DNA from: Geomonas ferrireducens | GTDB taxonomy: Bacteria; Desulfobacterota; Desulfuromonadia; Geobacterales; Geobacteraceae | DNA: 64,000 nt | Assembly: GCF_004917065.1 (NCBI RefSeq) | Contig: NZ_SSYA01000002.1 | Location: 845,897-909,896 of the forward strand | Reading direction: 5' to 3' | Shown: piece by piece, positions 1-11,882 of the stretch | Layout of the letters: each line of letters opens with the position of its first letter | How positions within the stretch are numbered: position 1 is the stretch's first letter | The notes under the pieces: generated by a model | Database searches by the model: none | Seen by the model: only the letters and a program-made list of their open reading frames with translations | Told to the model about the DNA's origin: nothing | Program-made: the position numbers and the translations under genes

Positions 1-1
1 C

Positions 2-799
2 GGACGTACAGGTAGGCCCATCGCACAAGGAAGATGCTGCTGCGGTTTCTACTTCTCTTTCTTTGGTACTGAGAAAGCTGACGCATCTATGCCTATCGTT
101 CATAGAATACAGCAGCACGGGCCAACATGGAAGCGAGAGATAAATCGCCTACGTAATGCTGGTTTCACCGTAACGAGAGTATGCAAGCAACTAAACATAA
201 ATGTGAGAGTGTTCTATTCGATCCAAAGAGGAACCAAATTTCAAGAACACCTTCAATCTCTTAGAAAACAGTGGCAAGACATTCTCGTCCATACAGAAAG
301 CAAGAATATTACTGAAGCTCGACGCCAAAATCCGCACCTATATCGGCAACTTAAAAGACGCGACCCTTGTTTTGTTTATCTTTCAACCAAAAGGAAACCA
401 TTCTCACATAAGAAAAGGAATATGGCAGGTTATTGGAAGAATCGTGACACAGTTTTGAGTTCACAGCTAAGAACAAAAGTTCGTGAAATAATGGAGTTGA
501 AACCGCCTGTTCGAGCAGCAGCTACTACTATACTGAGCAAATGTGATTTTTTAATGATTTTCAACATCCATCGCCGTAACCTGCCAATATGCGAAAAAAC
601 GCTTAAAGATGTGGCCGAGACCGCAGATGCCTTTCAAAAAAGACGTCTTAAGTACGTGCTAGAAAGGTCAAATAATGAAGATAAGTCCTTAACAAAAAGC
701 CAACTTTTTCAGAAAGCAGGAATTAGGCGAAAGGAGGATAAACAAAGACTAGAAAGTTATATTAATTCATTGCAATCAACACAGAGGAAGCAGAAATGA
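2..799 (+). CDS. TnsD/TniQ-family target selector, C-terminal part (5' end outside window)
   Basis: The reading frame is open from base 2, well before the first ATG at 89, so the gene almost surely begins upstream of the window. The upstream codons give a CCCGF motif, matching the CSCGF zinc-ribbon of the next protein and of TnsD proteins. After it come helix-turn-helix-like segments and a motif around ARRQNPHLYRQLKRRDP, which resembles the repeated TnsD C-terminal module (arginine-rich, LY-x-LxRxD). TnsD-type proteins bind a specific attachment site and recruit the TnsABC transposase. The stop overlaps the ATG of the next gene (ATGA at 796-799), so the two are translationally coupled. Family assignment is by motif and neighbour, not by alignment. 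Confidence 0.72.
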   Translation, partial: GRTGRPIAQGRCCCGFYFSFFGTEKADASMPIVHRIQQHGPTWKREINRLRNAGFTVTRVCKQLNINVRVFYSIQRGTKFQEHLQSLRKQWQDILVHTESKNITEARRQNPHLYRQLKRRDPCFVYLSTKRKPFSHKKRNMAGYWKNRDTVLSSQLRTKVREIMELKPPVRAAATTILSKCDFLMIFNIHRRNLPICEKTLKDVAETADAFQKRRLKYVLERSNNEDKSLTKSQLFQKAGIRRKEDKQRLESYINSLQSTQRKQK

Positions 800-2430
800 T
801 CCGGCCACGATTCATTTACCTTCCTTTCCCATATCAAGACGAACTGCTTTATAGCGTGTTAGCACGATACTGCTCCCGGTCCAATCAAAGACCTCATAAA
901 TTAGCATGCCTCATCTTTGATAAATGTTTTGTTATTCTCCGCGCTGACCTCCCGTGTGCCCTTTCTGCAGTGGCCCGGAAAACCAAGCCGACATGGGGAA
1001 TGACCGCAGAAACCATCCTGAAAGAACTGACCCTCTTCCCCTTCTACGAGCCGTTTCTACCAAAACCAGTGCGAGATAATCGAATGCATGCTCTTCTTTT
1101 GGGGCCATGTCGGTGCAACATAGGAACCAAAGCTTACCGTGTAAAATCACCTATATTTTTACGCTTGTGTGTGAAGTGCGCTGAAAGCGACCGGGAGGAA
1201 TTAGCAGAGACCTACTGGCGCAGGGTTCACCAGTTACCCGGTGTAATCGTCTGTCCGCAACACGGTACACCACTCGTTTCTACTTTGGCGCGTATTCAGC
1301 CAGGTCGTACCGAATGCGTAGATGCATCGTCGGCTACGTTTGGCAATACTGAACCTCTGGACAATCTTGATATAGAAATCATCCAGATGATTGCAATGCG
1401 GTGTAAGGATGTCCTATTTGGCAAAAAAAACGAATGGGATGGCAAGACATCTGCCACAGACTACCGCGACGCTGCTTTGAAAAGGGGAATTCAGAGACTA
1501 CCTGGCATTTGTTCACCCAATTTGTTTGTTGAAAAATTTCTCGCCCACTACGGAGCTCCTCTGCTCACGAAACTTGGCATGCTGGGGGCCGAAGGCAAGG
1601 CACCTTGGTTAAGGAACATGTTTCAGAATAACAGCAAGCAAATCTTCCATCCTATCGAGCACATACTTGTACAGCTGTACCTGGAGTCTTTGCCAGAGGT
1701 AGCATCAGCATATCCCTTCGGGCTAGGTCCATGGATGTGCCCCAACCCCTACGCCACTCACACAGAAAAATACCCTATCCAAAAATTGTCGATAAGGAGC
1801 AGGCAGGATAAGACCTATTATGGTCGTGCCAAGTGTTCGTGCGGTTTCACCTTTACTACCCATGGAACGGAAAGGGATAACCCTAGAATGCCAGTTGTGG
1901 AACAAATATCCTCGTACGGCTGTACCCGCTACCTGTACGCACAAAAATTATTGAGAGGAGGCTCTAGCACTGATCAAATCGCCAAGATACTTAAGGTTAA
2001 TCCTTGGTATTTACAGTGCATTCTCAGAGCCGGAAGCAGGAAATGTGAAGATCCGCGAGGTAAGATCCTCAAAGCACGGGAAGAGTGGCTGGACCTCCTT
2101 AAACAGGACCCAGAGTGTCGGGTAACTGTCGCTCGAAAGAAACATTGCGGTTTGTACCAGTTTTTAAGAAAGTACGACAGGGACTGGCTTCTCTGTCAGA
2201 AGGTTCCTCATAATGCTCACATTGATTGGCAAAAAAGAGACGTTGAGTGGAGCAACCTGATCGCCACCACGATGAAAACGCTAGGCCAAGGAGTTGCCAA
2301 GACGACCATTGCCAGAGTTGCAGGGCTAAATCTCAGAATTTTCAACCAGTTTGGAAAGCTGCCATTATGCGAGCAAGCCTTTAATAAAGCGAAACACTGC
2401 GGCAAAAGGAGACAAAACGATGAAAAATGA
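796..2430 (+). CDS. tnsD: TnsD/TniQ-family transposition target-selection protein
   Basis: A 544-residue protein with the TniQ N-terminus (PYQDELLYSVLARY, about residues 12-25), a zinc-binding region with CVKC near 126 and VCPQHGTPL near 152-160, then a second cysteine set (CPNPYATH near 315 and CSCGF near 348). The C-terminal third holds helix-turn-helix modules, including the TnsD-type YQFLRKYDRDWL motif. This full architecture is that of TnsD, which recognises the chromosomal attachment site, rather than of a short CRISPR-associated TniQ. It overlaps the preceding selector by four bases. Two full-type selectors in tandem suggest two alternative target sites. No CRISPR or Cas gene is visible nearby. 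Confidence 0.85.
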   Translation: MIRPRFIYLPFPYQDELLYSVLARYCSRSNQRPHKLACLIFDKCFVILRADLPCALSAVARKTKPTWGMTAETILKELTLFPFYEPFLPKPVRDNRMHALLLGPCRCNIGTKAYRVKSPIFLRLCVKCAESDREELAETYWRRVHQLPGVIVCPQHGTPLVSTLARIQPGRTECVDASSATFGNTEPLDNLDIEIIQMIAMRCKDVLFGKKNEWDGKTSATDYRDAALKRGIQRLPGICSPNLFVEKFLAHYGAPLLTKLGMLGAEGKAPWLRNMFQNNSKQIFHPIEHILVQLYLESLPEVASAYPFGLGPWMCPNPYATHTEKYPIQKLSIRSRQDKTYYGRAKCSCGFTFTTHGTERDNPRMPVVEQISSYGCTRYLYAQKLLRGGSSTDQIAKILKVNPWYLQCILRAGSRKCEDPRGKILKAREEWLDLLKQDPECRVTVARKKHCGLYQFLRKYDRDWLLCQKVPHNAHIDWQKRDVEWSNLIATTMKTLGQGVAKTTIARVAGLNLRIFNQFGKLPLCEQAFNKAKHCGKRRQNDEK

Positions 2431-2785
2431 GAAAGATGTCCTAGAGGAAGCTGGCGGAAGCATCTGGAAAACACCACCGGTGTCAGAACAGCCATGCGTT
2501 TACCTCACACGATGGTCTGTGATGGAAACCCAAGATGGGGCACGCCATTTGGTCGGTTACAACTCCGACAATTTCGAAGGCCGTGTAAGCACGCCTATCA
2601 AGAGCTTCGACTCCGTCACAGCTCGTGTTATCACGCAATCAGGTAGAATTTATGAACTTGTAGGCCCGCCTGGCTATGATCCTGACGCGGACTGGGTTTG
2701 GGCAAGATATGCATCAGCGATGAAGATTAAATGGCGTGACGTGACAGATGAGTTTTCTCAGTACTGCCCGAAAAGAGAGGCGTAG
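2420..2785 (+). CDS. Hypothetical protein, transposon cargo
   Basis: A 121-residue soluble protein of unknown function. I chose ATG 2420 because AAAGGAGA lies just ahead of it and because it overlaps the tail of the TnsD gene (stop 2428-2430), which suggests coupled translation; a longer frame from 2351 has no such site. No signal peptide or membrane segment is seen. The C-terminal half is rich in aromatic and charged residues (WVWARYASAMKIKW). Its tight coupling to the target selectors hints at either a transposition accessory or the first cargo gene. I do not recognise a domain. Confidence 0.6.
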   Translation: MKNEKDVLEEAGGSIWKTPPVSEQPCVYLTRWSVMETQDGARHLVGYNSDNFEGRVSTPIKSFDSVTARVITQSGRIYELVGPPGYDPDADWVWARYASAMKIKWRDVTDEFSQYCPKREA

Positions 2786-3253: not shown

Positions 3254-5203
3254 TTGTACCTGCACCGCATCTACGCCGAAAATTTCCGTGCCTTTGGTGA
3301 TGGCACATCTTCTCCAGTCTTAGACTGGGAATTGAATAAAGGCCTTAACGTCCTCATTGGCGAAAATGATGCAGGCAAGTCAGCAATAATAGACGCAATC
3401 CGACAAGTCCTATGGACGACAAGCTTCGAAATAATCCGCATCTTAGATTACGACTTTCATGTGGCGGGTGCTGATCGCACTGACACTCTCATCATCGAGG
3501 CGACTCTTAAGGATCTTTCTCCTGAGCAAGAATCAGCAGTCCTAGAGTGGCTAACTTACGAGACGGACGGGTCGCGTAGCCTCATCTTGAACCTGGAAGC
3601 CAGGAGGTTACCTCCCCAAGGCAAACGACGCGGACGGGTGCAGACGGTTGTCCGTTCTGGAAAAAGCGGGACTGGCCCTGAAATCGGTTTTGCAGTAAGG
3701 GAGCTTGTACGGGCTACATATCTTCGCCCCCTTCGAGATGCTGAGGCTGAACTCAAGCCCGGCCGTCAGTCCCGTCTTTCCCAGATTCTAGGGGCCCACG
3801 AGAAGATAGCGGAACATGAAGAAAGTGATTTTGACCGTTCTGCCCCAGAAACGGTCCCCAAAACGCTTGTTGGCCTTATGGAGCATGCCCAACACCACAT
3901 CGGGGAGCACCCAGTTATCTCTGAAGTCGCGGGTGACATAAACGAAAACTACCTTAGCCGAATGAGCTTTGCCGGCGATGAACTGGCGTCCGCGATTCGC
4001 CTTGCGGGTGACACGAATCTCAATCAGATTCTCCAGCGATTCGAACTCACTTTGCTTCCGCCTGGGAGCGTTGCACCAAACGAACATTGTCAGCGGGGCC
4101 TCGGGTATAACAACGCTCTGTTTATGGCCACCGAATTGGTGCTGCTCCGCAGCGGGGAAGAATTAGGGTTACTCCTCGTGGAGGAACCTGAAGCCCATCT
4201 GCACCCGCAGTTGCAGGTCAGGGTTATGGAGCTTTTACACCAGCCTCCGCAGGCTGATGAGTACCAAGTGCAAGTGGTGATGAGTACTCATAGTCCAACC
4301 CTTGCTGCTGGTGGCAGGATAGAGTCGATGACTCTGGTGCATAAGGCAAGGACATACCCTCTACGGGCCAACTGCACACGCCTGGCTGCTTCCGATTATG
4401 AGTACTTGAGACGTTTCATTGACTCGACCAAGTCAAACCTCTTTTTTGCCAGAGGGGTAGCGATTGTAGAGGGACCTGCCGAGGCATTACTGCTTCCTGC
4501 TATCGCAGAAATGGCAGGTATTGCATTTTCTACTCACGGAGTTTCCATCGTCAATGTCGGGGATGTCGGACTCTATCACTATGCCCGGATCTTCCAAAGA
4601 AAGAAGCCTGAAGAATTTATACCAATCCCGGTAGCATGCATCACAGACCGAGATATCGTTCCAGACATTGCCAACAGCTACGTGGGAAAACCAGCCAAAG
4701 GGAAGCGCTTCCATAGCGATTATACTGAACTTGAGGCAAAGGCTGTCGTCACGCGCAAGATCGAACGAGTCGAGTCACCTGATGACGAAGGCGTAAAGGT
4801 ATTCGTGTCCGATTTCTGGACCCTTGAATACGATTTAGCAGAGGCTGGACTGGCTGAACTGATGTATCACGCCATAGCACTGGCGCGAAAAACCAGTGAA
4901 AAAGGGCTGGATGAGGCTACTGAAGCCACGATCCTGGCAGACGCTGCAACAGAATGGGCGAAACTTCTGGCGATGAAACTTCCCACGGAAACTCTCGCGG
5001 CCATGATATACCAACCGCTTTATGAGAAGGACGCATCAAAAGCGGTGACCGCACAATACGCAGCGAAATTGCTGCGAACGGGCAAGTACGGAACTGGGAA
5101 TGATCTACTTGAGTCGCTCCCTAGGTACCTACAGGCCGCCTTAGTTCATGTCACAGGTACTTCTTTAGAACAGATTCCAGGTGCCCCTGGAGAACTGCCA
5201 TGA
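3254..5203 (+). CDS. gajA: OLD-family ATPase/Toprim nuclease, Gabija GajA-like
   Basis: A 649-residue protein. The start is TTG 3254, set by a strong AAAGGAGGG four bases before it; no ATG fits. The N-terminal ABC-type ATPase has a Walker A motif GENDAGKS (about 36-43), a Walker B with VEEPEAHLHP (about 307-316) and an H-motif STHSP (about 343). The C-terminal Toprim nuclease has IVEGPAEA (about 403-410) and ITDRD (about 462-466). OLD nucleases placed directly before a UvrD helicase form the Gabija anti-phage system, in which GajA is an ATP-sensing DNA nickase. The frame runs into the helicase with an ATGA overlap. The protein is somewhat longer than the first-described GajA (about 580 residues). 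Confidence 0.82.
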   Translation: MYLHRIYAENFRAFGDGTSSPVLDWELNKGLNVLIGENDAGKSAIIDAIRQVLWTTSFEIIRILDYDFHVAGADRTDTLIIEATLKDLSPEQESAVLEWLTYETDGSRSLILNLEARRLPPQGKRRGRVQTVVRSGKSGTGPEIGFAVRELVRATYLRPLRDAEAELKPGRQSRLSQILGAHEKIAEHEESDFDRSAPETVPKTLVGLMEHAQHHIGEHPVISEVAGDINENYLSRMSFAGDELASAIRLAGDTNLNQILQRFELTLLPPGSVAPNEHCQRGLGYNNALFMATELVLLRSGEELGLLLVEEPEAHLHPQLQVRVMELLHQPPQADEYQVQVVMSTHSPTLAAGGRIESMTLVHKARTYPLRANCTRLAASDYEYLRRFIDSTKSNLFFARGVAIVEGPAEALLLPAIAEMAGIAFSTHGVSIVNVGDVGLYHYARIFQRKKPEEFIPIPVACITDRDIVPDIANSYVGKPAKGKRFHSDYTELEAKAVVTRKIERVESPDDEGVKVFVSDFWTLEYDLAEAGLAELMYHAIALARKTSEKGLDEATEATILADAATEWAKLLAMKLPTETLAAMIYQPLYEKDASKAVTAQYAAKLLRTGKYGTGNDLLESLPRYLQAALVHVTGTSLEQIPGAPGELP

Positions 5204-7122
5204 CGATCCCAGTTATCGAACAGGCTGATTTAGAGCTTCTGGCCACAGCCTATCCTGATCTGGATTTTACAGATCCAGAGCGGCAAGCTGTTTTGCTAGA
5301 AAATGCGACCAAAGATGTCCAGGCAGCTCCGGGCAGCGGCAAAACAACACTATTAGCAGCAAAGCTCTTCCTCCTGTCACAGAAATGGTGCCATAGTAAT
5401 CGTGGGATATGCGTCCTTAGCCATACAAATGTGGCAGGAGAAGAAATCAAGAAGCGCCTCAGCGTCACCCCCACAGGCGCTAAGCTTCTTGACTACCCAC
5501 ATTTCATTGGGACAATTCACGCCTTCGTCAATCATTTTCTGGCCTTGCCGCTTCTTCGGAGCCAAGGATCATCCGTCGATGTCATAGATAACGATATATT
5601 TGCAGCACGCGCCACCTCTCTCCTGCCAAGAAAATTCAAATTACATGAATGGGTAAAACGCAATCCGAACCAAGGTCCGGACGCCATAAAAACACTCCAT
5701 TATGAAGGTGCTGATTTGAAACTGGCGTGGGCGACCGGTAAACTACCAGGTGAGGGCTCAGCCTCCCACCGTTTAGCCTATGATCTAAAAAACGATCTCG
5801 CAGGACGTGGGGTCTTCTGTCACGATGACATGTTTGCCTTTGCAGAGCGGCTCTTGCGACAGTGGCCTGACATCACAAAGAGACTATCCTGGCGATTTCC
5901 ACTCCTGCTCATAGATGAAATGCAAGACACGAGTTGGGCACAAGAGGACCTTCTAACCCGCCTTTTCGACGATACTGTTGTAATACAGCGATATGGAGAT
6001 CGCAATCAACGCATCTTGAGTTCAGCGAAGGACTCCAATAAGCTCAGTTTTCCGAAGGCTGAATTCTTGAGTGTAAAGACAACAAAACGATTCCCGAAAT
6101 CGATTGCAGAAGCGGTGAGTGCAGTCCAAGAACATGGTGAGGCAGTAGAGGCTGCCCAGCGTCATAACGCACCCTCGCCGGTGCTTATGCTTTACGAGAC
6201 GCCATCAGCAACCTCGGTTATCGAGCAATTCGGCAAGATAGTTCTAAGAACGTTACCGGACGAAACTTTAAGACTGGGGGCGGTAAAAGCAATTTGTGCT
6301 CGTAAGCAAGGCGCCGCAAACGCGGACCCCGGACGGCACCTTATGGATTACTGGCCATCCTACATGCTCACGGGGCCCGCGGTAGCAGGGGAGGAAAGCG
6401 CATTTCGGTTGCTTTCTGCCCCCCCAGCTATGGGGGTATCACATCTCAATCTCGATCGCAGAGCCCGCGACGTGAAAAGGGCAATTCTTCTGGCTTTAAG
6501 AAAAGCCGGAAATAAGGCTGTCGCAGATGTGAGAGACGCATCCGGCCTTATACGAGCCCTTGAAGCTGCAGGTGAGGACTCCTCATCTGTTCGGCTACTG
6601 TGTCACGAATTGGCAGTCGGACGAGGACATGCGGTTGATGCTACGAGTTGGTCTGCCACATTGGATTTGATGTATACCAGACTCACCCCTCTACTGCCGG
6701 CCGGCTTGAATCGCATCGGTTTCCATGCCCTTCCCATCTTTGAAGTCCCCCAAGCGACCCCAACAGCGGCATTACCTGCTAATGAATGCGTGGCTAGAGT
6801 AGGCGACCGACAAGTCCGCGTGCAAATAGGGACTGTGGCATCGGTGAAAGGCGAAACCCATGTGGCAACCCTCGTCCTTGAAGCACATGGCGGCCTTGCC
6901 CGCTGCTTCGATCTGCAAACAGCGCTAGGCAATATTAGCGACGGAAACCGGATTGACGCGAGGACAACGGACACAGTGAGGGGGCTCTATCGAAATCTCT
7001 ACGTAGCCATGTCACGTCCGACACACTTACTATGCTTGGCTATGAATAGGGATAGAGCCAAAAAACAACACGTCGACAACTTGGCTGCGAAGGGGTGGAC
7101 TGTTGTGATTGTCCCGCCATAA
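5200..7122 (+). CDS. gajB: UvrD/Rep-like helicase, Gabija GajB-like
   Basis: A 640-residue superfamily 1 helicase coupled by a four-base overlap to the OLD nuclease. Visible motifs are Walker A AAPGSGKTT (about 42-50), motif II LLIDEMQDT (about 235-243), motif III-like YGDRNQRI, motif IV KTTKRF, motif V SVKGETH (about 548) and motif VI LYVAMSRPTH (about 600-609). In Gabija GajB senses DNA ends made by GajA and consumes nucleotides. The motif set looks intact. GajB described first is shorter (about 500 residues), so this pair may be a longer subtype. No further gene of the unit follows; the next 690 bases hold IS debris. Confidence 0.82.
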   Translation: MTIPVIEQADLELLATAYPDLDFTDPERQAVLLENATKDVQAAPGSGKTTLLAAKLFLLSQKWCHSNRGICVLSHTNVAGEEIKKRLSVTPTGAKLLDYPHFIGTIHAFVNHFLALPLLRSQGSSVDVIDNDIFAARATSLLPRKFKLHEWVKRNPNQGPDAIKTLHYEGADLKLAWATGKLPGEGSASHRLAYDLKNDLAGRGVFCHDDMFAFAERLLRQWPDITKRLSWRFPLLLIDEMQDTSWAQEDLLTRLFDDTVVIQRYGDRNQRILSSAKDSNKLSFPKAEFLSVKTTKRFPKSIAEAVSAVQEHGEAVEAAQRHNAPSPVLMLYETPSATSVIEQFGKIVLRTLPDETLRLGAVKAICARKQGAANADPGRHLMDYWPSYMLTGPAVAGEESAFRLLSAPPAMGVSHLNLDRRARDVKRAILLALRKAGNKAVADVRDASGLIRALEAAGEDSSSVRLLCHELAVGRGHAVDATSWSATLDLMYTRLTPLLPAGLNRIGFHALPIFEVPQATPTAALPANECVARVGDRQVRVQIGTVASVKGETHVATLVLEAHGGLARCFDLQTALGNISDGNRIDARTTDTVRGLYRNLYVAMSRPTHLLCLAMNRDRAKKQHVDNLAAKGWTVVIVPP

Positions 7123-7811: not shown

Positions 7812-10800
7812 ATGCGATTCCTTGCGAATGGTCCTTCTATACCAGATGAGCTCCTGGTTGCCAGAGATGAGGGACGAGTCATTTTTTTCTGTGGTGCAGG
7901 CGTGTCTCGTGCTCGTGCAGGGCTGTCAGATTTTTTCGGATTAGCTGAAAAAGTGACGGGTAACTTGAGGGTCCCCGCCGGCAGTCCGATACGAAAGCTG
8001 ATTTCCGAAGCACGAGAACTTGATGAAAGGCTTGGAATTAGCGGACTTATTTCTGCGGATAGGATTTTCGGGCTCCTCGAGAGAGATTTTCTCGTTCGCG
8101 AAATAGAAGCATCAGTCGCAAGGGCACTGAAACCAGAACCTGATGTTGACCTTTCGGCACATAAGATCATACTCGATCTGGCTAGGTTCCATGATGGGAA
8201 AACGACGCTAGTAACGACCAATTTCGACTTGCTTTTCGAGTCATGCGACACTTCAGTCCCCTACCACAAACCACCTCGTTTACCTGACCCGCAGTATACC
8301 GATGCCTTTGAAGGCATCATCCACCTACACGGACATGTCGATAGTGAGTATTGCACCTCGTCTGACGGCTTCGTATTATCAAGTTCTGAATTCGGTCACG
8401 CTTATCTGGCGGATGGCTGGGCCACCGAATTTATCCGCTCCGTTCTCGAACGATACACAGTAGTTTTTATTGGCTATGCTGCAGATGACCCACCAGTACT
8501 ATACCTACTGGAGGCTTTGAACAGGCATAGCAACGCTTCATACGTAATGTATGCCTTCCAGGCTGGTTCCCCAGATACTGCGGAAGCAAAATGGCGTCAT
8601 AAGGGTGTCACTCCCATACCCTACGAAGAGGCTGGCGGCCATAAAAGCCTGTGGGAAACCTTGGGTGCTTGGGCTACCAGAGCAAAGAACCCAGATCAAT
8701 GGTATGAAGATGTGATAGATATGGCCAGGAAAGGTCCCGAGGAACTACTTCCACATGAACGAGGGCAGGTGGCTCATGTTGTATCAACCCTTGCAGGGGC
8801 AAAAAAGTTCGCTTCTTCTGAAAATCCCCCCCCTGCCGCATGGCTATGTGTTTTTGACCCCCTCCTTCGCTATTTAAAGCCAGGCTATCTTGGGTCATAC
8901 ATAGACCGAGGTCCATATTTTGATCCTTTCCAGGCTTTTGGATTAGATAGCGATCCGAGACCTTCGGAAATTGATCCTGAAGATTACGGAGCCAAACGAG
9001 AAGTGCCGAAGGGTGTATGGGACTGTTTTGCTATTACTAAGCCTGACAGGCAGGATCTTGGTGAGGGGAATTTCGCTACATTAAGAGGCCATTATTCAAT
9101 CAATACAGCTATTTTGCCTAATAGATTACGGCAAATAGGCCTTTGGATAGGGGCCGTTTCATACCAGCCAGCGGCACCTTGGTGGGCATCTCATCAAACT
9201 GGAATACACCCCGATATACAAAGGCATGTAAGATATGAACTTGAGCGAAGGAAGCTAGATTCCACACCGGAAGTCCGGCGGGCATGGCGCTACATTTTTG
9301 CGGGATGGAAGAGCCCGAAGAAAAATTACCATGATTGGTTTCAACTAAAGCCATCCATCGATCTTGATGGTTGGTCGGACGCTGCCGTAAGAGAAGTTGC
9401 CTTAATTTGGCGACCATACTTAAGCATCGGATGGCCTTATAGCAGCGGTCCAAAACCACCTTCCACCACTGAAGATATCGACTTTAGACATTTGGTAAAT
9501 GCAACGGTGGAGTATCCCGATTTCCATGAAACGTTGGAGATACCCAACGAACATCTTCTAACCATTGTTCGTGAGTTTAGAAAGAATCTCGAATATTCTG
9601 TATCCCTTGAAAAGGAGCTCGATACCCTCTGTTTTCTCTCCTTGTGCCCAATAGAAGCTGACCCGGATCTGGAAGGTGAATCATCCGAGCGGCATTACGG
9701 ACTCTCACGGCTATTTCTCTTTTATGTCGAACTTGTTGATCGACTCACTCGATTGGACCCGAAAGCAGCGAAACGCGAGGCTCTGGCATGGTGGCAAGAG
9801 GATGAAAAAATCTTCGCTCGCTTACGAATTTGGGCCGCCGGTCGGCAAAGTCTCTTCTCCACCATAGAAGCTGGCGAACAACTTTGTAGCCTCACCGATG
9901 AGGTCTTTTGGGATAGTTATCACCAAAGAGACCTTATGCTTGTTCTTAGCCAGCTATGGAATCAATTACCGGTCCGTTTCCGAAAACGGCTTGAGAGAAG
10001 ATTGCTTCGGGGACGTCGGCGTTGGACGGGGGAAAAAACAAGTGAGCACCGCGTTAGACGTGCCTGGAATATTTTAAACCGCATACATTGGCTCTCTGAC
10101 AAGGGCTGCAAATTTAGTTTCGATATTGAAAAAGAATCGCTGAAATTACAGGATTTAGCGCCAGAATGGCAGCAACAATATTCAGCCAAGGCTGCGGCGT
10201 CCTTCGAAGGCCGTGGTGGAACTGTCGCTACCGATACAGACTATATAGAACTTCTCAACGAGCCCTTAGCCACTGTTCTCGATAGAGCTAGAGAGCTGAG
10301 TGGGCGATTCTCTGAGCGACTAGTCACCAAGGATCCATTCGCCGGCTTAGCTGCTGAGCGGCCTATTCGTGCCTTTTTGGCACTTAAGTTCTCAGCTAAG
10401 AAAAGCGGGGAAATGCAAGAATGGGCATGGAAAAAATTCCTATTTTCCCCGGCCAGAGAGCATGACAGACCACGTTTCTCTGCCTTAATTGCCCGTAGAC
10501 TGGCAGCAGCGGGCGCAAATGCTATTGCAGGACTGACATATGCGATATCTGATTGGTTTGTGAAATCTTGTCAAACTCTTTTTAGTCGGGACCAAGAGGG
10601 ATTTGAACAATTATGGTCTAAGATACTGAATGTGCTGGGGATAAACGTTGCCGTTGCTAAAACTGCTCTCGTCGGGGGGAATAAAGAACGAGCGTGGGCT
10701 ACCGAGGCATTGAATTCCCCTGTCGGAAAACTGGTACAGGGCATAATGTTGCATCCATTGAAAGAAAACTTGGTTGGAGGGAAAGGGCTGCCTTGTAAAT

Positions 10801-11639
10801 GGACGAGCTATGCTGAAGACCTACTTGCGCTGCCTGATGACCATCGACGCTATGCAATCGTAACTTTTACGTACAACCTCAGTTGGTTCTTCTTTATTGA
10901 TCCAGAGTGGACGGAAAAACATCTTCTTTCTGCTCTCGAGGGCGACAAGGAGGATCTAGAGGCATTCTGGGCTGGTTTTTTCTGGGCCGGCAAAGTCCCA
11001 GATATCAGTCTTTACATTCGGTTAAAGCAGGCTCTATTACAACTTGCATTAAAAAGGCCGCTAGTAGAGAAACGGGAGGCTAGCACTCTTCCGGCAATTC
11101 TTCTAGCCGGTTGGGCAACCTTACATCCTGGAACGGACGAGCGCCTTATCACAAGCGAAGAGATGCGTAATGTCTTGCTTTCCGCGGGTGATTCCTTCAG
11201 AGAGCAGGTACTCTGGCATTGGGAGCGGTGGTGTTCTGGTGGGAAAAATCCGGCGTGGAAGGCAACTCTCCCTCTATTCCTTAAAGAGGTTTGGCCACGA
11301 CAGAAACAGGCAAAGACCCCACGGACATCTGCAAGGCTTTGTGACCTAGCATTCTCGAGTGAAACCGACTTTCCTACCATTGCCGACGCCATCTTACCAC
11401 TGATAAGCAAGATTGATGTGGAAGAAATTATTTTCCCTCATCTCAGAGGTGCTAGTAACCAAATAGTCGAGAAATACCCGGAGGGTACCCTCACACTTCT
11501 TTGGGAAATACTCCCTGAAAATGCAACGAAATGGCCGTATGGGCTTGGTGAGGTCTTATCGAAACTTGGTGAAGCGAATTCGTCTCTGACAAGCGATAAC
11601 CGTTTGGCGTTATTAAAGCATCGATGGAACAACAGGTAA
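7812..11639 (+). CDS. dsr1: SIR2-domain anti-phage protein, DSR1-like
   Basis: A 1275-residue protein. The N-terminal SIR2 fold has the NAD-binding FFCGAGVSRARAGLSDF (about 26-42), TTNFD (about 135-139) and the catalytic-type HLHGH (about 171-175). The rest is a long helical region with many Trp and Leu residues and no membrane segment, as in defence-associated sirtuins, where it senses phage proteins. DSR-type proteins deplete cellular NAD+ on infection and abort phage growth. The sequence FLANGPSIPDELLVARDEGR at the start resembles entries I recall under the name Dsr1; this was not checked by search. A GGAG at 7799-7802 supports the ATG. It is the last gene of the transposon. Confidence 0.78.
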   Translation: MRFLANGPSIPDELLVARDEGRVIFFCGAGVSRARAGLSDFFGLAEKVTGNLRVPAGSPIRKLISEARELDERLGISGLISADRIFGLLERDFLVREIEASVARALKPEPDVDLSAHKIILDLARFHDGKTTLVTTNFDLLFESCDTSVPYHKPPRLPDPQYTDAFEGIIHLHGHVDSEYCTSSDGFVLSSSEFGHAYLADGWATEFIRSVLERYTVVFIGYAADDPPVLYLLEALNRHSNASYVMYAFQAGSPDTAEAKWRHKGVTPIPYEEAGGHKSLWETLGAWATRAKNPDQWYEDVIDMARKGPEELLPHERGQVAHVVSTLAGAKKFASSENPPPAAWLCVFDPLLRYLKPGYLGSYIDRGPYFDPFQAFGLDSDPRPSEIDPEDYGAKREVPKGVWDCFAITKPDRQDLGEGNFATLRGHYSINTAILPNRLRQIGLWIGAVSYQPAAPWWASHQTGIHPDIQRHVRYELERRKLDSTPEVRRAWRYIFAGWKSPKKNYHDWFQLKPSIDLDGWSDAAVREVALIWRPYLSIGWPYSSGPKPPSTTEDIDFRHLVNATVEYPDFHETLEIPNEHLLTIVREFRKNLEYSVSLEKELDTLCFLSLCPIEADPDLEGESSERHYGLSRLFLFYVELVDRLTRLDPKAAKREALAWWQEDEKIFARLRIWAAGRQSLFSTIEAGEQLCSLTDEVFWDSYHQRDLMLVLSQLWNQLPVRFRKRLERRLLRGRRRWTGEKTSEHRVRRAWNILNRIHWLSDKGCKFSFDIEKESLKLQDLAPEWQQQYSAKAAASFEGRGGTVATDTDYIELLNEPLATVLDRARELSGRFSERLVTKDPFAGLAAERPIRAFLALKFSAKKSGEMQEWAWKKFLFSPAREHDRPRFSALIARRLAAAGANAIAGLTYAISDWFVKSCQTLFSRDQEGFEQLWSKILNVLGINVAVAKTALVGGNKERAWATEALNSPVGKLVQGIMLHPLKENLVGGKGLPCKWTSYAEDLLALPDDHRRYAIVTFTYNLSWFFFIDPEWTEKHLLSALEGDKEDLEAFWAGFFWAGKVPDISLYIRLKQALLQLALKRPLVEKREASTLPAILLAGWATLHPGTDERLITSEEMRNVLLSAGDSFREQVLWHWERWCSGGKNPAWKATLPLFLKEVWPRQKQAKTPRTSARLCDLAFSSETDFPTIADAILPLISKIDVEEIIFPHLRGASNQIVEKYPEGTLTLLWEILPENATKWPYGLGEVLSKLGEANSSLTSDNRLALLKHRWNNR

Positions 11640-11725: not shown

Positions 11726-11882
11726 CCCAAAACGTAAGGACTTTATTGTCTTGGGAAATGGCCCTTTAATGATGGGAACAGGGAAAAAGTAAGGACTTTG
11801 CATTAGGCACGACGGGACAGCTATCACCGAAAACCAAATACCTAGACCATCTTTTTGTTAAGGACCTAATTGCCTCCCGACA
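11726..11882. repeat. Tn7-like right terminus: three TnsB-site-like repeats and ACA end
   Basis: Three direct copies of a roughly 20-bp motif lie at 11726-11750, 11781-11810 and 11851-11882. The shared core is TAAGGAC (11735, 11790, 11859), extended to GTAAGGACTTT in the two inner copies. Read toward the element they have the form CAATAAAGTCCTTACG and CAATTAGGTCCTTAAC. Spacings of 55 and 69 bases match the loose array typical of the cargo-side end of Tn7 elements. The outer copy runs to ACA at 11880-11882, giving a TGT terminus. The assignment is by arrangement; binding was not shown. Confidence 0.68.

Follow-up and report, generated by a model that had tools for sequence, protein, structure and literature searches.

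The closest described system is Tn7 of Escherichia coli, whose TnsABCD proteins act at glmS. The element analysed here shares with Tn7 the homologues of TnsA, TnsB, TnsC and TnsD, the repeats at both ends, and the use of a conserved gene's 3' end, where a selector acts and the insertion falls just after the gene. It differs from Tn7 by its two TnsD-type proteins, with no TnsE noticed, by the gene of a sigma-54 response regulator (RR) that replaces glmS, the insertion being 9-13 bp after the stop codon, and by the internal position of its tns operon, which 34 kb separate from the right end.

Dual TnsD/TniQ elements are already a known kind. Excerpts of Faure 2023 (PMC10293859) give counts of 998 loci for dual TniQ-TnsD proteins and of 50 for larger numbers; the proposal made there is duplication in place followed by a new function. 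The tandem selector genes, two-tnsD pairs included, and the in-place duplication are common to these loci and to ours; as the same excerpts describe them, however, the second protein is usually substantially smaller, whereas both are long here (598 and 544 aa). In the available part of the 2012 report on a Salmonella Tn7-like element (PMC3401170), recognition of a new site is tentatively ascribed to one of two TnsDs. That element resembles ours by its two TnsDs and by a target other than glmS, also a gene's 3' end, and differs in that the gene encodes an NAD-utilizing dehydrogenase and the host is enteric. Two relatives identified in this work, G008 at the RR site and G449 at glmS, have ends of like kind, TnsABC and a TnsD of the same clade, but each has only one selector, and their sites differ. 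As a detail, the RR attachment site appears to be new: word searches of the open-licence papers of PubMed Central listed none that describes it, and no description stands in the portions seen of PMC6537148 and PMC3401170.

The element and its two selectors

The window, that is the whole stretch of 64,000 nucleotides under analysis (G000:C2:845897-909896), opens inside a Tn7-family transposon with two full-length selectors, which is real and occupies C2:806119-857778, 51,660 bases (51.7 kb). The original prediction took the first frame for the C-terminal part of a TnsD-like protein overlapping the ATG of a second, complete one, and both Pfam and the coordinates agree with it. Frame 2..799 is open and encodes a TnsD-like C-terminal part (PF15978, 3.7e-24); it is the 3' part of tniQ1 (window 1..799, forward strand), whose start at C2:844899 is about 1 kb to the left of the window. 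Read with the upstream contig, this TnsD-like gene encodes 598 aa with no stops; it is intact and not a decayed copy. The second gene, tniQ2 (796..2430, forward strand), encodes a TnsD-like protein of 544 aa, the probable selector of the RR site; the stop of tniQ1 and the ATG of tniQ2 overlap, with shared bases within 796-799. The idea of two full-type selectors is supported by the presence of both domains in each protein (Pfam TniQ 2.8e-13 and TnsD 5.3e-44 for full-length TniQ1, TniQ 3.2e-17 and TnsD 1.3e-46 for TniQ2), and no other TniQ-domain place came up in the genome at E 0.001. TniQ1 matches the Tn7 TnsD structure 8glu over residues 5-293 (E 1e-13), and a profile of the TniQ2 group matches it with E 3.4e-27. 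C119, C122, C147 and H150 (TniQ1 numbering) are kept in both proteins, and we equate them with the TnsD zinc motif described in the consulted part of PMC2918618. The C-terminal halves had been said to differ strongly, in line with different DNA targets. They do differ (59/215 identical residues, 27%), but barely more than the N-terminal halves (102/315, 32%), and this nearly equal divergence weakens the argument drawn from it. The larger difference at this terminus is an extension of about 60 residues, which TniQ1 has and TniQ2 lacks. The AlphaFold models were too poor for use (pLDDT 39.7 for TniQ2, 58.6 for the C-terminal part of TniQ1).

Directly after tniQ2 comes a small ORF of 121 aa (2420..2785, forward strand), to which no family is assigned: no Pfam family over its cut-off and no NCBIfam or PADLOC family was found. 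It is also located 3' of tniQ2 in the other dual element, that of G017, with 81 of 111 aligned residues identical, and has a relative in G022 (L046:6245-6580; score 320, the next frame scoring 39). It might be cargo or an accessory factor. The G022 relative adjoins a different Tn7-like operon (L046:7061-12091), which lies near the 3' end of larC on the opposite strand and is called TnsA, TnsB, TnsC and TniQ by size and order only (245, 640, 306 and 474 aa).

Extension to the left revealed tnsA (C2:840265), tnsB and tnsC upstream of the window, followed by tniQ1 and tniQ2, all on one strand, as the prediction of a Tn7-like element had implied. TnsA contains both TnsA domains (PF08722 2.6e-13, PF08721 5.2e-07). 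TnsB has no Pfam match at useful scores; it aligns with nearly all of Tn7 TnsB (7pik; residues 13-662, E 3.4e-79), and the positions that correspond to the catalytic residues are D, D and E. The tnsC gene (L003:17277-18877 = C2:843277-844877) is in two pieces in different frames, which match residues 7-213 and 245-473 of Tn7 TnsC; the break occurs just before the Walker B region (our own label, from the sequence), and the gene is in a single frame in the relatives G017 and G008. The break is either a real frameshift or a sequence error, and because of it the copy as read is probably not mobile by itself.

The left end of the transposon is at 11857..11882 of the window, on the reverse strand, with its outermost base at 11882 (C2:857778) and 4 mismatches to the end pattern; 11734..11750, also on the reverse strand, is an inner end repeat, a TnsB-site-like box. 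The right end, at C2:806119 outside the window, comes from the end-pattern search. The repeat of 11734-11750 recurs near elements in related genomes. The G019 copies are part of a pair of ends that face each other, with the 5-bp duplication GTCTC. Perfect 5-bp target duplications also frame the elements of G028 (GCAGC) and G008 (CCCTC; C11:233555-253885). For the studied element and that of G017 (C1:330033-408785), the search within the mismatch limits gave two ends each and none in between; their 5-bp flanks do not match, for which reason they may be recombinants of more than one insertion. The tns operon has DNA within the ends on both sides, and so has that of G008, where the duplication is perfect.

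Two other boundaries were considered and rejected. One is the end of larC, beyond which the similarity to G022 and G023 is lost, as if at a right end; the true ends, however, are much further out, and the lar genes belong to the interior of the element. The own sequence, G022 and G023 part company in the last codons of the part-length larC or shortly downstream of them (L003:13705). An 18-base inverted match near tnsA of G008 has flanks without duplication, and the ends with a duplication in this element are elsewhere. The elements of G019 C17 (L049:5143-11152) and of G028 (L078:6178-12314), with their perfect 5-bp duplications, are small, about 6 kb; no transposase gene was recognised inside the former, which may be moved in trans.

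The cargo extends on both sides of the operon. Behind the selectors are a GajA-like OLD nuclease (3254..5203; PADLOC GajA 2.6e-221) and a GajB-like UvrD helicase (5200..7122; PADLOC GajB 1.4e-218), which make up a Gabija system, and a Dsr1-like SIR2-domain protein (7812..11639; PADLOC Dsr1 2.3e-78, Pfam SIR2_2 3.3e-16), all on the forward strand; the Dsr1 likeness is mainly N-terminal, the best stretch being residues 1-349. The upstream cargo comprises larE, larB and a part-length larC (positions 4-229 of 375), aldo-keto reductases and an MFS transporter, named by eye from their translations, cytochrome c proteins and an efflux set. A large serine recombinase is encoded just inside the right end (L005:773-2386 = C2:806773-808386). 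Gabija and sirtuins are listed among the more frequent defence cargo of Tn7-like elements in the part seen of Benler 2021, and the cargo is in this respect ordinary. The original prediction had no CRISPR genes in view, and the scans made of the element agree with it: a simple exact-repeat scan of the 51.7 kb found no CRISPR-like array, 20 of the protein frames, scanned with Pfam, gave no Cas family, and no 14-mer is common to the element and the last 260 bp before it.

The attachment site at the response-regulator gene

The studied element lies 11 bp after the stop codon of the RR gene. The search for the 26-base end at no more than 3 mismatches in 48 genomes of the host family resulted in 15 places in 10 genomes. 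Nine are RR-side ends, all 9-13 bp after the RR stop (the own element, G017, G019, G028, G025, G008, G010, G006 and G038), and four are the far ends of the elements of G008, G017, G019 and G028. In G015 a left-type end stands alone, some 0.75 kb past the same RR gene, and G019 has an orphan end (C10:611073 = L084:9073), for which no partner was found and which adjoins a sequence encoding NLATLVDKMRRL, resembling the 3' end of the RR gene. Measured from a fixed codon (the N of NRTTLVEKM), the end is 60-63 bp away in eight of the nine and 67 bp away in G006. From our reading of the flanks, the right-type end, with its closely spaced boxes, faces the RR gene in eight of the nine; G019 is inverted, with its left-type end facing the gene. 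The RR gene itself was found in 45 of the 48 genomes at the cut-off used, and the best named models for its protein are AtoC and NtrC, both below their curated cut-offs. A tRNA target was also considered and dropped, as the window and seven flanking loci contain no tRNA gene.

The RR 3' end and about 4 kb beyond it were fetched for 18 genomes and searched for boxes at no more than 2 mismatches. Sixteen of these 3' ends have no end box within this limit; the other two are G015, with its known end, and G016, whose end is at the same place with one extra base. In G009, of the same genus as G008, the RR gene is without an end box nearby, and the far-flank sequence of G008 is found from 7 bp past the RR stop onwards; a stretch of about 100 bp adjoining G008's left end has no equivalent in G009. 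A class-wide search for one box gave 11 of 277 genomes. Among them, G228 and G256 belong to another family; their ends follow the stop of the homologous gene at 5 and 13 bp, and their distances from the fixed codon are 56 and 58 bp. G190 has a second orphan end with two boxes (C12:60338 = L143:8338), with no RR gene beside it and no partner end in the 18 kb searched.

One element able to enter two different attachment sites was the central idea of the original prediction, and the insertion points do not bear it out: the nine host-family RR-side ends are all at one site, whether the element has two selectors (the own one and G017) or one (G008). The proposed comparison of insertion points did reveal a recurring target, the RR gene, but not the expected pair; apart from one orphan end, it is the only site that recurs for this group in the 48 genomes. 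No insertion could be attributed to TniQ1. Since almost all host-family relatives are at one spot after the RR gene, a second landing site for this element remains a guess.

The probable reader of the site and the possible role of TniQ1

The model we propose, which we hold to be likely as a whole, is that of a Tn7-family element brought to the RR site by TniQ2, with TniQ1 as an old duplicate that has, or once had, another target, in a copy that is probably immobile. Both ends, the RR site, tnsA, tnsB and tnsC, the two selectors and the cargo on both sides are read directly from the sequence, and the cutting, the linking and the targeting by TniQ2 are what we infer from them. TnsB, with TnsA, would cut at the TGTCGGGAGACAATTAAG ends, and TnsC would join the transposase to the selector. 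TniQ2 would bind the RR gene at its last codons, which encode NRTTLVEKMRRLGM, and direct the insertion to about 60 bp from the start of the NRTTLVEKMRRLGM codon run, leaving the RR gene intact. TniQ1, in this model an old duplicate of TniQ2, would have kept the ancestral C-terminal module, and for that reason would most likely serve, or have once served, a different target.

The assignment of the RR site to TniQ2 comes from the relatives. TnsB matches were found in 8 of the 48 host-family genomes, and a TniQ2-type profile matched 13 of the 277 genomes of the class at E 1e-30: the own genome and G017, each with a pair of selectors of this group, G008 with a single one, and ten genomes with more distant proteins, among which G041 and G018 also have two. 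For the remaining six genomes with RR-side ends, the same profile search came up without a selector of this group. In a tree that included the glmS-site relative G449 and E. coli TnsD, TniQ1 (own, G017; 100/100) and TniQ2 (own, G017, G008; 95/95) form separate groups. G008 has a single TnsD, of the TniQ2 clade, at the RR site, and it is mainly from this one single-selector relative that we take TniQ2, and not TniQ1 or both, as the protein that probably reads the RR gene. The unmatched 5-bp flanks of the own element and of G017, the inverted element of G019, the unexplained orphan ends G019 C10:611073 and G190 C12:60338 and the additional 100 bp or so of G008 also count against the model as a whole.

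A possible target of TniQ1 is suggested by G449, a distant relative from another class of the phylum, which was found in a phylum-wide sample, where 3 of 395 genomes match, the others being the own genome and G008; in its class, 1 of 26 genomes has an element of this kind, G449 itself, and no second one was found. Its element (C13:84019-130357; L148:14332-14357), with like ends and CCTTA as its duplication, is separated by 25 bp from the stop codon of glmS (NCBIfam TIGR01135, E 1.9e-249), the classical Tn7 site, which it follows. Its single TnsD of 606 aa is of the same clade as TniQ1 and TniQ2 (99/97), so the selector clade uses at least two target genes, in different elements. Furthermore, the TniQ1 extension gives with this protein a local score of 65 (maximum of 42 in 1000 shuffles). 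As the G449 TnsD with the extra C-terminal module of TniQ1 sits after glmS, this gene is the best testable guess for TniQ1. The extension also resembles more distant TnsDs, with scores of 72 for G263, 65 for G011, 54 for G018_a, 47 for G041_b and 45 for E. coli TnsD, and of 32-41 for the TniQ2-type proteins. Judged from these sequence scores, it is thus an ancestral feature, which marks ancestry and is no proof of glmS targeting.

If TniQ1 were functional as a second selector and served a further site on the chromosome, glmS being the most plausible one, one element would have two homes. The intact tniQ1 of the studied element, the insertion of G449 after glmS and the new functions that Faure 2023 proposes for duplicates, in the excerpts seen, are in its favour. 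We nevertheless consider it unlikely: none of the 15 end places in the 48 family genomes is beside glmS, the extension is shared with more distant TnsDs, and TniQ1 is no nearer to the G449 TnsD (29% over 623 columns) than are TniQ2 (30% over 553) or the G008 protein (31% over 569). That TniQ1 is a fading duplicate with no present target is a possibility we rate as rather unlikely. It evolves faster than TniQ2 (tips of 0.90 and 1.26 against 0.45 and 0.40), and G008 has no TniQ1. In G017, its frame ends at 476 aa and the gap after it contains a 3' remnant with stops (score 48; maximum of 42 in 300 shuffles), so that TniQ1 is not needed everywhere. The studied copy, however, has its 598 aa without stops, both Pfam domains and the zinc residues.

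The overlap of the genes, which probably results in coupled translation, and the presence of both dual elements of the group at the RR site would be compatible with a single complex of the two selectors acting there, as Tn6022, in the available text of Faure 2023, uses TniQ and a partner. This is very doubtful, for G008 reaches the same site with a perfect duplication and a TniQ2-type protein only. Equally improbable is an insertion into plasmids or other mobile DNA directed by TniQ1 in the manner of Tn7 TnsE. Tn7-like elements do often combine a chromosomal and a plasmid pathway, according to the part seen of the review PMC11406308, but in 72,556 plasmid records all the matches found are distant (67 records for TniQ1, 159 for TniQ2, every one below 60% identity), and among the 20 matches listed per search those covering most of the query are about 22-27% identical.

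Selectors and a recurrent landing place

To our knowledge, the role of the second gene in the common tandem TnsD/TniQ pairs is rarely known outside CRISPR-associated elements. The elements found here form a small natural series: G449 has a single selector at glmS, G008 a single one at the RR gene, and the own element and G017 have two at the RR gene. With this series, the switch of a selector from one target to another can be tested directly. The RR site itself is a recurrent landing place of these elements in the host family, loaded here with defence genes. Could TniQ2 have lost the terminal module and moved to the RR gene after an old duplication, and TniQ1, with its ancestral architecture, still read glmS? 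We offer this as a tentative and decidedly unlikely scenario. If so, the element would be caught between its old and its new chromosomal home.
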